Source of the DNA: a bacterium
GTDB taxonomy: Bacteria > Fibrobacterota > Fibrobacteria > UBA11236
DNA length: 38,635 bases
NCBI GenBank assembly: GCA_900299345.1
Contig: OMJM01000026.1
Coordinates: forward strand, 1 to 38,635
Direction: 5' to 3'
The position numbers and the translations under genes are program-made. Shown piece after piece: positions 9,387 through 17,503 of this stretch; positions within the stretch are counted from its first letter, which is position 1; each line of letters starts with the position of its first letter. The notes beneath the pieces were generated by a model that saw only the letters and a list, made by a program, of their open reading frames with translations, did no database searches and was not told where the DNA came from.

Positions 9387-10244
9387 ATGCCGCCAGAAAC
9401 CACACAGGCCGTCTCCGTTTTCCAATACCTGAATGCGAAGGAGTTTCTTTCGCAAGCGTACAATGTGGAAAAGCACCGTAATCCCATGTTTTCCCACCGC
9501 TACATCGCCAAAGCCATGGGCGCAAAATCCTCGAGCTTTTTCAAGGACGTGCTCAACGGTAGGATCAAGCTGACACCGGGCCGAATGAGAAGCTTCGCGC
9601 GCATCTTCAAACTGGCGAAACGCGAAACAGAACATTTCGAGAACCTGATGCTCTACGCCCAGGCGGACACCGAGGACGAGAAAAAACATTACTTGCAGCG
9701 ACTTCTTGCCCGTTCCACACTGCACCGGCATACCGTGCTGGAAGCCTTTCAAATGGAGTACTTCAAGAAGTGGTACTACGCGGCCGTGCGAGAGTTGGTG
9801 GGACTGATTGATTTCCAAGGGGACTACAAACGGCTTGCGGGAATGTTGGAACCTTCCATCACTTCGAATGAAGCGATGGAAGCCGTGCAACTTTTACTCA
9901 AGCTCAAACTGATCCGCAAAACAGCGCAAGGCCGTCTGGAAAAAGTGGACAAGGTGGTCAGCTCCGGCACGACGAACAATCCGGGATTGGTCAAGCCGGC
10001 CATTCGGGAAAACCTTGATCTCGCCTACCGCGCCCTCGAAGAGTATCCCGTGAAAATCAGGCCATTCTCATACCTGACCTTGAGCATCTCCGAGGAATCC
10101 TTCCTGAGGATCCACGAAACACTCAAAAGCTTCCGCAAGGAAATCCTGGACATCGCGGCCCATGACGAAGGAGCGGATCGTCTATATCAATTAAATTTTC
10201 AACTGTTCCCTTTGTCAAAAGTTTCAGAACAGGAAAAGAAATAA
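9387..10244 (+). CDS. TIGR02147-family (DUF4423-like) putative regulator
   Basis: The 285-residue protein matches the TIGR02147 family known as a large paralogous group in Fibrobacter succinogenes. The N-terminal part has a helix-turn-helix-like region, SHRYIAKAMGAKSSSFFKDVLNGRIKLTP (about 32-60), followed by the FARIFKLAKRETEHFENLMLYAQA segment typical of the family. The central W-Y-Y-A-A-V-R-E-L stretch and C-terminal R-P-F-S-Y-L-T-L-S-I-S also fit. No sensor or catalytic domain is recognised. The stop TAA is directly followed by the ATG of a lipoprotein gene, so expression is probably coupled. DNA binding and target are inferred from the fold, not shown. Confidence 0.88.
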   Translation: MPPETTQAVSVFQYLNAKEFLSQAYNVEKHRNPMFSHRYIAKAMGAKSSSFFKDVLNGRIKLTPGRMRSFARIFKLAKRETEHFENLMLYAQADTEDEKKHYLQRLLARSTLHRHTVLEAFQMEYFKKWYYAAVRELVGLIDFQGDYKRLAGMLEPSITSNEAMEAVQLLLKLKLIRKTAQGRLEKVDKVVSSGTTNNPGLVKPAIRENLDLAYRALEEYPVKIRPFSYLTLSISEESFLRIHETLKSFRKEILDIAAHDEGADRLYQLNFQLFPLSKVSEQEKK

Positions 10245-11204
10245 ATGGAACGGTGGAACGCCCTTCCCTGTCTGACGCTCCTTGTGCTCGCGTGCCAAGG
10301 CTGCATGATGTCGGGCGGTGGGACAGAGGGTGAAGGCCTTACCGGCACCTTTGTAAATCCACAGGGGCAACCCGTGGCAGGTGTGACCGTCAAACTCTAC
10401 GATGCCGACGATGAGAATGCCCTTTCCAAAGCAACTTCGACGCACGAATATTCCGATTCGACGGTAACCGATGCCTCGGGGCGATACCGTTTCTCCTCCC
10501 TTGGCAAGGGGCGTTACAATCTTGAAGGCATCTCGGGTAATGGCGGAAATGCTGAAGCCATCTTTATTCCTTCCATAAAATTTGAAGGTGCTCTGGACTT
10601 GGGCACGGACACCTTGCACGTACCGGGTGGAATCCGAATTCATATTCGTTCCAACGGCACTCCACAGGAAGGGGTTTTGTGTTATGTGCCCGGAACGTCC
10701 CTGCTGGCCATCAGCGACGATTTAGGCCAGTGCCTCATGACGGGTGTCGCCGCCGGATTGTACCGTGTGCGGTTGCGTTACGACGGCCTGTTGACGGTAA
10801 CTTCCTCGGACATCCAAGTGAAGCCCGGCGTTATTACCGATGTAGGTATTTTGACGATGACTTCGGATCCCAGCCAGAACCCACCCACCCCCAAGGGGGT
10901 TACCGTCCGTTACGACAGCATTTCAGGAATCGCCACCGTGACGTGGAAGCGAGTGGAAGTGTCCGATCTGGCGGGATATGTTATTTACCGGAGACCCAGT
11001 CTTTTCGCCACGCCGGAAAGATTGATTCCCACCACCACTCTGGTTATGGACACAATTTTCAGAGACACGTCCCTCCACATTATGGCGGACAGCATCCCCC
11101 TCACCTATGTATATCAGGTGAAAGCACAGGACCTGAACGGAAACCTCAGCAACGATTATTCGGATCCGGCGACGCTCGTTTTCGCACCGAAGAAAAACAG
11201 GTGA
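10245..11204 (+). CDS. Putative lipoprotein with carboxypeptidase-regulatory-like and FN3 domains
   Basis: The 319-residue protein starts with a hydrophobic signal (LTLLVLACQGC) ending in Cys residues that could be lipidated; the lipobox is imperfect. Residues about 30-110 look like a carboxypeptidase regulatory-like beta sandwich (GTFVNPQGQPVAGVTVKLYD ... DASGRYRFSSLGKGRYNLE). A second similar module follows at about 125-200 and an FN3 domain at about 215-315 (ATVTWKRVEVSDLAGYVIYRR). Such modules act in extracellular binding. The ATG touches the stop of the upstream TIGR02147 gene and the next gene starts 4 nt after its stop, so the three form one translational unit. No catalytic residues are apparent. 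Confidence 0.82.
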   Translation: MERWNALPCLTLLVLACQGCMMSGGGTEGEGLTGTFVNPQGQPVAGVTVKLYDADDENALSKATSTHEYSDSTVTDASGRYRFSSLGKGRYNLEGISGNGGNAEAIFIPSIKFEGALDLGTDTLHVPGGIRIHIRSNGTPQEGVLCYVPGTSLLAISDDLGQCLMTGVAAGLYRVRLRYDGLLTVTSSDIQVKPGVITDVGILTMTSDPSQNPPTPKGVTVRYDSISGIATVTWKRVEVSDLAGYVIYRRPSLFATPERLIPTTTLVMDTIFRDTSLHIMADSIPLTYVYQVKAQDLNGNLSNDYSDPATLVFAPKKNR

Positions 11205-11208
11205 TCCC

Positions 11209-12285
11209 ATGAGACGACCCGCATTCATTTCGATTCTTTCCTTTGTTCTCCCCCTGTCGGCTCAGGTTACGTGGACGCCGCAAAGCAGCGGGACCACACT
11301 GACTCTCAACTCCATTTACTGTCCCACGGCCGTCATCTGCTATGCAGACGGCGCTTCCGGAGTGCTCCTCAAAACCACCAATGGAGGCACAAGCTGGACA
11401 ACGCAAAACAGCGGGACCACCAACGCATTGAATTCCATCTTTTTTACAAGCACTTCTACCGGATTCGCCACAAGCAAACCGGGTACTGTAAGAAAGACCA
11501 CGAATGGAGGCACGAATTGGACAGTGAAGTTTACATTCACCGGGGTACAAACGGGATTGAATGCAATCCACTTTCCCAAAGCCGACTCGGGATGGACCGT
11601 GGGAGAAAACGGCACCATCCTCCGCTCAACAGATAGCGGCAACACCTGGACTGCGCAAACCAGCGGAACAACCAACATATTGTATTCGACCCGCTTCAGC
11701 GACGCGCGCACCGGGTGGGCTGTGGGTTCCTCGGGTATCATCCTCAAAACAACCAACAGCGGAGCCACATGGACCCCGCAAACCAGTGGCACGCTTCAAA
11801 GTCTGCGTTCGGTATTCTTCCTGAATTCCACAACGGGGTATATCGCTGGGGACAGCGGAATCCTCAAGACAACCAACGGTGGAACGGCATGGACAAGAAA
11901 CAGCACGGGAATCGTGGGGCTGCTTTCGATCCACTTCCCCATCACCACGACGGGTTATGCGGTGGGCGCTTCAGGCCGCATCGCCTTAACGAGCAACAGT
12001 GGAACAGTGTGGTCATCCCAGACCTCAGGGACACAATCCTTCAGTGCGGTCTATTCGCCCGACGAGAATACAACCTTCATCGTGGGCACAAATGGAACCA
12101 TCTTGAAAAATCTCGGGAGCACCACTTCCATCAAGTCGAGGATAACAACAAGCTTGCAATCGTCGACCACAACACCGGCCTGGCAGAGCCTTTATTACCT
12201 GAATACGCGAGTGTTCGACGCTCAGGGCCGACGATTTTTTTTCACACCCCTGTCGCCAACACACGCGAATTCCGCTTCTCATTAA
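11209..12285 (+). CDS. Secreted Ycf48/BNR-like beta-propeller protein, C-terminus possibly truncated
   Basis: The 358-residue protein has a short signal peptide (to about residue 19, PLSAQ) and then seven roughly 40-residue repeats, each with a T-T-N-G-G-T-x-W-T motif and a following G-W/Y-A-V-G strand, as in Ycf48-like seven-bladed propellers. The repeats end near residue 305. The tail contains TRVFDAQGRR, like the start of a type IX sorting domain, but then runs into FFFTPLSPTHANSASH and stops, without the usual terminal GVYxVR. The final 44 nt overlap the 3' end of argA on the other strand, and an 8-T run at 12235-12242 sits just where the tail loses resemblance. Ligand unknown. Confidence 0.85.
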   Translation: MRRPAFISILSFVLPLSAQVTWTPQSSGTTLTLNSIYCPTAVICYADGASGVLLKTTNGGTSWTTQNSGTTNALNSIFFTSTSTGFATSKPGTVRKTTNGGTNWTVKFTFTGVQTGLNAIHFPKADSGWTVGENGTILRSTDSGNTWTAQTSGTTNILYSTRFSDARTGWAVGSSGIILKTTNSGATWTPQTSGTLQSLRSVFFLNSTTGYIAGDSGILKTTNGGTAWTRNSTGIVGLLSIHFPITTTGYAVGASGRIALTSNSGTVWSSQTSGTQSFSAVYSPDENTTFIVGTNGTILKNLGSTTSIKSRITTSLQSSTTTPAWQSLYYLNTRVFDAQGRRFFFTPLSPTHANSASH

Positions 12286-14613: not shown

Positions 14614-14659
14614 GTCTTCCAACTCGTGTTTCTGACAACCGTAAAATTAGCTTTAACCC

Positions 14660-15754
14660 ATGCTCAACAAAGCCAAGAGCGGCGAAAACGATTCCCAGTT
14701 CCAGAAGATCTCCTTTCTTCTGATTCTGATCGCCATCAGTCTGGGTTTCCTGTTCATGGTCCGACACTTCTTGATGACCTTACTCATGGCCGGCGTGTTC
14801 ACAGGCCTTTCCTATCCACTGTATGAATTCTTTTTACGTCATCTACGGAAACCTCCCCTCGCGGCAGTAATCACGCTTTTCGTCTTCATCCTGGTGATTG
14901 TGCTGCCCGTGGGCGCCGTCGCAACGGTGGCGTACAAGGAAGCTTCGAACTTCTTTGGATCCGCGGATCTCACTGCGCTCCCGAATCTGATGGAACAGTG
15001 GATGGAACAGGTGCGCGAGCTATTCCCCTCTCTTCTTTCACGCTGGACCGCAGACGACATTTCCAGCATCGCGTCGCAGGGACTGCAAAAGCTTTTTCAG
15101 TGGATTCTGAAAAACGGAGGCAACCTCACCCTCGCCGCGGCCGCCAATATCGCGAATGTGTTCCTGATGCTGTTCATGATGTTTTACTTCTACATGGACG
15201 GGCACCGCATCCGTCGCAAGCTCATCAAATGGATCCCTCTGCGGGACGATTACGAGGAAATTCTTCTGCAAAAATTCCTCGCCGTCAGCCGCGCCACACT
15301 CAAGGGCATTTTGATCGTCGGAACGATACAAGGAGCCATCGGCGCCGTGATCTTCGCCATTCTGCACATTCATTCTCCAGTGTTTCTCGGAGTACTGATG
15401 CTGTTCTGCTCGGTGATTCCGATCCTGGGCACCTCCATCGTATGGGGGCCCGTGGCCGTGTTCCTGTTTGTTCAGGGACGGGTCGGAGCGGCAATCGCGG
15501 TGATCGCCGTGGGACTCCTGCTGATCGGCACGGTGGACAACCTGTTGCGGCCGCGTCTCGTGGGCAAGGACATCAAGATGCACGATCTGATGGTCCTGAT
15601 TTCAACTTTGGGCGGACTCGGACTATTCGGTCTGCCGGGTTTCGTGATGGGCCCCATTCTGGGTTCATTATTCCTCAGCATCTGGAATATGTACGAAGAG
15701 GTTTTTGCAGAGGAGCTGAAGAAAAATCAGGTTCCCATGGACGGGAATCCCTAA
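14660..15754 (+). CDS. AI-2E family transporter (PerM/YdiK-like permease)
   Basis: The 364-residue protein is an integral membrane protein of the PF01594 AI-2 exporter/PerM family. It has paired N-terminal helices (about 22-50 and 65-90), a less hydrophobic middle, a helix around 155-175, and a dense hydrophobic C-terminal half with the family-typical VIPILGTSIVWGPVA segment, DNLLRPRLVGKDIKMHDLMVLISTLGGLGLFGLPGFVMGPI and a final helix. Members export small solutes or autoinducers, or act as Na+/H+ antiporters; the substrate here is unknown. The gene is divergent from the TrpD2-like gene with a gap of about 46 nt. It was probably once followed directly by the phosphoesterase gene (see the 14-nt repeat). 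Confidence 0.9.
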   Translation: MLNKAKSGENDSQFQKISFLLILIAISLGFLFMVRHFLMTLLMAGVFTGLSYPLYEFFLRHLRKPPLAAVITLFVFILVIVLPVGAVATVAYKEASNFFGSADLTALPNLMEQWMEQVRELFPSLLSRWTADDISSIASQGLQKLFQWILKNGGNLTLAAAANIANVFLMLFMMFYFYMDGHRIRRKLIKWIPLRDDYEEILLQKFLAVSRATLKGILIVGTIQGAIGAVIFAILHIHSPVFLGVLMLFCSVIPILGTSIVWGPVAVFLFVQGRVGAAIAVIAVGLLLIGTVDNLLRPRLVGKDIKMHDLMVLISTLGGLGLFGLPGFVMGPILGSLFLSIWNMYEEVFAEELKKNQVPMDGNP

Positions 15755-15760
15755 CGCTTA

Positions 15761-15774
15761 ATGAAAGTCTTTGC
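15761..15774 (+). repeat. 14-nt direct repeat, left copy
   Basis: ATGAAAGTCTTTGC lies 6 nt after the permease stop and is identical to the first 14 nt of the phosphoesterase gene at 16739-16752. It looks like a leftover original start of that gene, opening a 38-codon remnant frame that soon enters unrelated sequence. Confidence 0.8.
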
Positions 15775-16738
15775 AGAGAGTCGAAGAGAAATAAACTTGT
15801 CGACAGAGACCCACCCGAAAGCCGAACGTAGTCGACACCAGACCCCCTTGTTTTGTTGTTTAATTCGGGGAACATGAATATCCAGCACACATGCTGTTCG
15901 AATTGTTGTTACGGAGATATTTCTTCTTGTCAAAAATGGTTCTTTGCCAGCTGGGCATTACCGAAGAGTACTTCTCTCGAAGTTTAAAATTCTGCCTTTC
16001 CATCTTGCCGCTCTCCAGCACGTATTCAATCGCCATGTCCGTTGTATATTCGATCGTATCGTGATTTCGGCTATTTAGAAGTATCCATCTATCCGCAAAC
16101 AAACCAGGCGGAACCACAGTGGTATCCGTAAGCAAATGATTCTCGGGGATCATTTTTGCCATCTGCAGACTATCCATCCTCTTCCCCATTTCGTTCACTC
16201 CATAGGCAGCAAAGGAACCAAATGTGGCCGCATCTCCGACGGTTCTCAGCGTATTATTGCCTGAAAAAATAGAGAGGCCAGCGCCAATACCCGCAATGAT
16301 GGCCATCGCGGATTTGTCTTTTTGTTCGTTTACAGCAATAAGCTTGCTTTGAGCTTGGTACCAAAGAGTCAGTTCTCGACCAAGAGTAATCCTAATGTTC
16401 TGATTCTGAGATGCGTCTGGGAAGTACACTCGCACATTTGAAAGTTTGTGCCATTTATCTGAACTGTTCGCAAGACGAACCTCCACATATCCGAAGTATT
16501 CGCTGCTTAGCTTATCGTTAAGCGTACACTTGATTGAAATATCTGAGTTGGATGTTTCTTGAGAAAATGCGTTTTGAGTGAAACCAAGAACAATCGCCAA
16601 CAATAAGATCGTCGAAGAGAGCACCCGGGAAGCGCGCATTATTTCCTCCTACTTTTGGAGCAACACAAACAAAGCTCAAATAGTAGCACCCCATTCACAA
16701 CTTGTTCTACTAATCGGAAAATGGCATTTTTCCAGCCG
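15775..16738. mobile_element. Putative inserted segment bounded by a 14-nt duplication
   Basis: This 964-nt stretch sits between two identical 14-nt copies of the phosphoesterase gene start and carries one minus-strand signal-peptide gene. Three 60-nt lines I counted inside it are about 37-48% GC, against 55-67% in two neighbouring lines. I see no transposase or integrase and no convincing terminal inverted repeats, so the mechanism is unknown. The bounding repeat could be a target-site duplication, an att-like core or a microhomology junction. Confidence 0.5.
15860..16639 (-). CDS. Exported protein of unknown function in the inserted segment
   Basis: The 259-residue protein has a clear signal peptide (residues 1-26, ending NAFS-Q). 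I do not recognise the family. The mature part begins with a beta-rich stretch containing YFGYVEVRLANSSDKWHKLSNVRVYFPD. It then has a Gly/Ala-rich, mildly hydrophobic section (AMAIIAGIGAGLSIFSGNN ... FGSFAAYGVNEMG) that could be a membrane or glycine-zipper segment, and ends in an Asn/Ser-rich tail with two Cys. A strong AGGAGG site lies 6 nt before the ATG, supporting the start. Codon and base use are more AT-rich than neighbouring genes. A periplasmic or surface location is likely. Confidence 0.75.
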   Translation of the reverse strand: MRASRVLSSTILLLAIVLGFTQNAFSQETSNSDISIKCTLNDKLSSEYFGYVEVRLANSSDKWHKLSNVRVYFPDASQNQNIRITLGRELTLWYQAQSKLIAVNEQKDKSAMAIIAGIGAGLSIFSGNNTLRTVGDAATFGSFAAYGVNEMGKRMDSLQMAKMIPENHLLTDTTVVPPGLFADRWILLNSRNHDTIEYTTDMAIEYVLESGKMERQNFKLREKYSSVMPSWQRTIFDKKKYLRNNNSNSMCAGYSCSPN

Positions 16739-16752
16739 ATGAAAGTCTTTGC
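16739..16752 (+). repeat. 14-nt direct repeat, right copy
   Basis: This is the first 14 nt of the phosphoesterase gene, identical to 15761-15774. The flanking bases differ on both sides. Confidence 0.8.
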
Positions 16753-17503
16753 CATCTCAGATCCCCACCTTTCCTTCGGGGTCCCAAACAAATCCATGGA
16801 TCGTTTCGGCGCGGAATGGGTGAACCATCCTGCCAAGATCGAAAAGAACTGGCGGGAGATTGTGGGAGAAAAGGACGTGGTGCTGGTTCCCGGCGACATC
16901 AGCTGGGCCAAAAAACTTCCCGATGTCATGCCGGATTTATTGTGGCTCGACAAACTCCCAGGCATCAAGGTAATTCTGAACGGCAACCACGATTACTGGT
17001 GGCCCACAGCGACCATTTTGGAACGCGAACTACCCCCGTCACTGCGTTTCGTTCACAACAATCATGTGCGCATCGGCCCGTTTCTGTTTTTCGGGACACG
17101 TTTGTGGGACACTTCCGAATATTCCCTGTTCGACTTGATCGAGTGGGATCCGAAAAAAGGCGAGATACCCGGCCTGAAAAGCGGGCAGGATCTGGAGACG
17201 CAGGAGAAACTCTACGAGAGGGAAATCCAACGATTGAAGTTGAGCATTACCTCAATACCTCGCGAGGACTCCGCTATCCGCATCGCGTTGACGCACTATC
17301 CGCCGCTCAACCACACCTTGACGCCGTCCCGAGTTTCAGGAACGCTGGAAACCGCAGGGACGAAACACACAGTATTCGGCCATCTGCATTCGATTAAGAA
17401 AGAGTGGATCGGAAAGGCTTTTGGGAAACTGAACGGCGTGACCTACCACCTGACGGCGTGCGATTATCTCGACTTCATTCCCAAACTGATTTGCGAGGCT
17501 TGA
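16739..17503 (+). CDS. COG1768-type metallophosphoesterase
   Basis: The 254-residue protein has the calcineurin-like phosphoesterase metal motifs in order: D-P-H (residues 8-10), GD (52-53), GNHD (82-85, followed by YWW), THYPP (near 190) and GHLHS (near 218). The pattern FAISDPHLSFG ... VLVPGDISWAKKLPD ... LPGIKVILNGNHDYWW fits the COG1768 predicted phosphohydrolases, whose substrate is not established. The ATG at 16739 is preferred because the family starts MKVFAISD and the same 14 nt recur at 15761. An upstream in-frame ATG at 16721 now adds six residues from the inserted segment. The 3' end overlaps convergent hemW by 40 nt. Confidence 0.88.
   Translation: MKVFAISDPHLSFGVPNKSMDRFGAEWVNHPAKIEKNWREIVGEKDVVLVPGDISWAKKLPDVMPDLLWLDKLPGIKVILNGNHDYWWPTATILERELPPSLRFVHNNHVRIGPFLFFGTRLWDTSEYSLFDLIEWDPKKGEIPGLKSGQDLETQEKLYEREIQRLKLSITSIPREDSAIRIALTHYPPLNHTLTPSRVSGTLETAGTKHTVFGHLHSIKKEWIGKAFGKLNGVTYHLTACDYLDFIPKLICEA

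Follow-up and report, generated by a model that had tools for sequence, protein, structure and literature searches.

The locus described here raises the question of how a gene of no known family came to lie between two conserved neighbors, and whether the short sequence that stands on both sides of it is the footprint of a transposon. It belongs to a stretch of 38,635 nt from a genome of the Fibrobacterota (contig OMJM01000026.1 of assembly GCA_900299345.1), which was analyzed as a whole and is called the window below. The left neighbor is the gene for an AI-2E family transporter (permease) at 14660..15754 of the plus strand (PF01594, E=1.6e-49), with its stop codon at 15752-15754; it is syntenic in all three congeners compared in this study. 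The right neighbor, at 16739..17503 of the plus strand, encodes a calcineurin-like metallophosphoesterase (PF00149, E=5.9e-9). The sequence ATGAAAGTCTTTGC is found exactly at 15761-15774 (+), 6 nt past the permease stop, and again at 16739-16752 (+), where it forms the first 14 nt and the working start of the phosphoesterase gene. The two copies are 978 nt apart from start to start, and the whole assembly (2,237,634 bases) contains only these two copies, both at this locus. The earlier note, which gave both positions exactly and correctly observed that the flanking bases differ, proposed that the permease and phosphoesterase genes had once been adjacent, and that a segment of 964 nt, lying exactly between the copies, had inserted at the phosphoesterase start codon and duplicated 14 nt there.

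The former adjacency of the two genes is borne out by comparison of the genome of the window (G000) with three congeners (G001, G002, and G003). In G002, the phosphoesterase start follows the permease stop after 23 nt, and about 56 nt separate the two in G001; no gene lies between them in either genome, and the gene order on both sides of the junction is conserved in all four. Since G000 and G002 are sisters in the tree (support 0.996), the adjacency is most simply ancestral, with the gene gained on the G000 branch. The phosphoesterase is 79% identical to its G002 counterpart, which opens with the same 14 nt, and the nearest named relatives are Fibrobacterota MAGs. Two outcomes of such a comparison had been named in advance as speaking against an insertion, namely, close relatives that all carry the gene at this place with the same flanks, or the absence of any genome with adjacent permease and phosphoesterase genes; given the empty sites in G002 and G001, neither was found. 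The comparison of sequences thus supports the gain of a foreign-looking gene between the permease and the phosphoesterase after the split from the sister species. Local gene content turns over at 9387-12285 of the window as well as at the orphan locus: three consecutive genes there lack a counterpart in the G002 region, which is syntenic apart from this; G001 has matches to those at 9387 and 10245, and G003 to all three, some of them weak.

The gained gene is a minus-strand ORF of 259 aa at 15860..16639. The single gene on the opposite strand that had been described is therefore present, whereas the export of its product, which had been described along with it, is probable as judged from a signal-peptide-like N-terminus only. 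The GC content of the gene (0.444) and its GC3 (0.485) are the lowest among the 28 genes of the window, and the segment is AT-richer than its surroundings (GC 0.42-0.48 against 0.51-0.58), as the earlier note had it. Atypical composition and patchy distribution, the two marks of horizontal gain, are both observed: counting a distant homolog in G003, the gene occurs in 2 of 168 genomes of the phylum. This homolog, the only one detected in these genomes, is an ORF 44% identical over 62 residues. It is located at L026:1426-1688, at the end of contig G003:C50, which cuts it, beside a metX-metW-like gene. Relocation of the orphan from such a place was considered; the metX-metW neighborhood in G000 carries other genes. 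A suggested search for the protein elsewhere in genomes thus yielded one distant relative, and that for further copies of the 964-nt segment yielded none, the segment being single-copy. The orphan product has no significant assignment in Pfam, NCBIfam, or PHROG, and matches PDB sequences at the noise level only; its single-sequence structure model is uninformative (pLDDT 34).

A strong Shine-Dalgarno sequence, AGGAGG, precedes the orphan gene, within 16640..16738, the spacer from which the orphan and phosphoesterase genes diverge. The last 26 nt of this spacer weakly resemble the phosphoesterase leader of G002 (p=0.036). A Shine-Dalgarno-like site is missing in most genes of the window, and many leaders have a C-rich YCC before the ATG (for example, 14635-14659 and 16714-16738), in place of which the orphan gene has AGGAGG.

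Short direct repeats flanking a gained segment are a mark of transposable elements, and one exact 14-nt pair is present here. Direct repeats of 14 nt at most 3 kb apart are not rare as such, with four pairs in the window. A 14-nt match between the left spacer (105 nt) and the right spacer together with the phosphoesterase start is expected by chance with a probability of approximately 4e-5, a value extrapolated from shuffling, which gives 7e-4 at 12 nt, with a roughly fourfold drop per base.

The sequence next to the left copy, however, may derive from a neighboring gene. The 19 nt that follow it resemble, collinearly, the stretch after GTTTTTGC in the 3' end of the permease gene (p approximately 5e-4 to 1e-3, noticed post hoc). 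The stretch GTCTTTGCAGA-GAGTCGAAGAGAAAT, which runs on from the left copy, can be aligned with the permease 3' end GTTTTTGCAGAGGAGCTGAAGAAAAAT (15701..15727, plus strand), 66 nt upstream; the local alignment, to 15767-15792, has a score of 31 (p=5e-4), and its length of about 27 nt includes 4 mismatches and one gap. With the alignment fixed to the last base of the 14-mer, an equal score is reached at only 3 of the approximately 38,600 positions of the window (p=1e-3 in shuffles). Moreover, the start of the phosphoesterase gene, GTCTTTGC, and the permease tail, GTTTTTGC, have 7 of 8 bases in common (GTYTTTGC). We take GTCTTTGCAGAGAGTCGAAGAGAAAT at 15767..15792 (+) to be a possible remnant of the permease 3' end (proposed source, 15701..15727) that became attached to the left 14-mer at this motif. 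The second unit predicted for a 66-nt tandem duplication is significant when taken whole (p=3e-4 to 1e-3), with its first 19 nt recognizable; the second half alone, which would fall in the remainder of the left spacer (15793..15859), shows no significant match to the rest of the 66-nt unit (p=0.39). The possibility that the right copy is preceded by the remainder of the duplicated unit was rejected on the same value, and the right copy lacks the CGCTTA that should stand in front of it. No such match was found with the tails of the congeners' permeases, the resemblance being limited to the permease tail of this genome itself.

Because its continuation resembles the permease 3' end, the left copy has the appearance of a phosphoesterase start joined to a permease tail, and as such it would record a microhomology-mediated rearrangement. 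We estimate a probability of about one half for the reading in which the orphan gene was gained after the split from the sister species and the left 14-mer is a microhomology junction with the permease 3' end, with no target duplication by a transposon. Under this reading, the 8-nt microhomology GTYTTTGC would be the point at which a phosphoesterase start met a second piece of the permease 3' end, one that has since diverged. The left copy would be 14 nt of that start running into the permease tail, and the right copy just serves as the functional start of the phosphoesterase gene. The event may have been a tandem duplication of about 66 nt, a template switch in repair, or an unequal exchange of empty and occupied alleles. 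It would have preceded or accompanied the arrival of the gene, which by default is ascribed to illegitimate or homology-assisted recombination of incoming DNA. One difficulty is that, if a duplication is so old that its two pieces differ by about 20%, an exact 14-mer that is not under selection would be a little unexpected, except where the tail derives from a different allele. Spontaneous duplications at microhomologies are documented for bacterial cultures, and the verified junctions mostly have at least 11 nt of microhomology, longer than here (PMC3411829). The apparent short sequence common to two nearby sequences at the junction, the putative local donor, and the lack of mobile-element genes recall that system; in contrast to it, a foreign-looking gene lies inside the rearranged interval, the duplicate is eroded, and the junction was deduced from the sequence rather than observed.

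The duplication of a target site by an integrating segment is disfavored by comparison with the microhomology junction, as far as the sequences can tell. Insertion sequences and their non-autonomous derivatives leave short direct repeats from target-site duplication and have empty sites in relatives; the gained segment is likewise bounded by short direct repeats, with empty sites in related genomes. In contrast to insertion sequences, it has no inverted ends (the best inverted match has p>0.8 in three placements), no recombinase, and no second copy of either the segment or its left end in the genome, and it carries an extra permease-like sequence at the left. Its sole long ORF has no family match, in agreement with the earlier note that no transposase is present, no match of the segment to a mobile-element family was found, and the orphan has no relative above noise in phage records, viral contigs, or PHROGs. 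Integration of 964 nt at the phosphoesterase start codon by a staggered cut, through an enzyme still to be named or one acting in trans, would account for the exact 14-nt copies with different flanks, the empty sites, and the AT-rich segment, but it leaves the permease-tail-like sequence beside the left copy unexplained. We regard it as rather unlikely, keeping it in consideration since the resemblance to the permease tail spans a short stretch and was noticed post hoc (p of about 1e-3). It is improbable, in turn, that the insertion is real while the 14-mer match and the likeness to the permease tail are both fortuitous and the true ends of the gene lie elsewhere in the two spacers. Such matches do arise, as the four 14-nt repeats within 3 kb in the window demonstrate, and phosphoesterase leaders vary freely between species; against this stand the chance value of the match between the two spacers, given above, and the collinearity of that match with another that is itself unlikely.

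Further possibilities arise from G003, where a different minus-strand gene, coding for an MliC-domain lipoprotein (PF09864, E=2e-11), occupies the corresponding junction and has the same orientation (L017:568-1278, between the same two genes). A minus-strand gene for an exported protein might have been ancestral to the genus here, lost in G001 and G002, and retained in G003 as a very diverged version. The place and strand of the G003 gene agree with this; however, that gene is an MliC lipoprotein, searches with the orphan protein and with the G003 lipoprotein did not find each other, the composition of the G000 gene is atypical, and two losses are required by the tree, so that this history is very improbable. 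A different gene at the junction in the same orientation is also what suggests a hotspot, at which an unrecognized integration process without inverted ends would place single exported-protein genes at start codons with duplications of about 14 nt; no significant repeat like the 14-mer was found at the G003 insertion (p=0.38), and we give this proposal hardly any credence. Other vehicles were tried and rejected. An integron cassette or other structured end has no counterpart in the window, in which no Rfam match was found and shuffled sequences fold as well as the left spacer does; the window holds no tRNA that could anchor an island; and the searches of phage records, viral contigs, and PHROGs gave nothing above noise for phage cargo.

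The gain of lineage-specific orphan (ORFan) genes of low GC content is a known kind of event, and a short AT-rich gene of unknown family in a conserved neighborhood shows no essential difference from it. Overall, the locus is an ordinary case of gene gain, and the scar that accompanies it is of slight interest. The general view of such events is unchanged by the finding; it adds a clear case of a gene gained between conserved neighbors, with empty sites in relatives, and it recommends that short flanking repeats be checked for a local donor sequence before they are called a transposon footprint.
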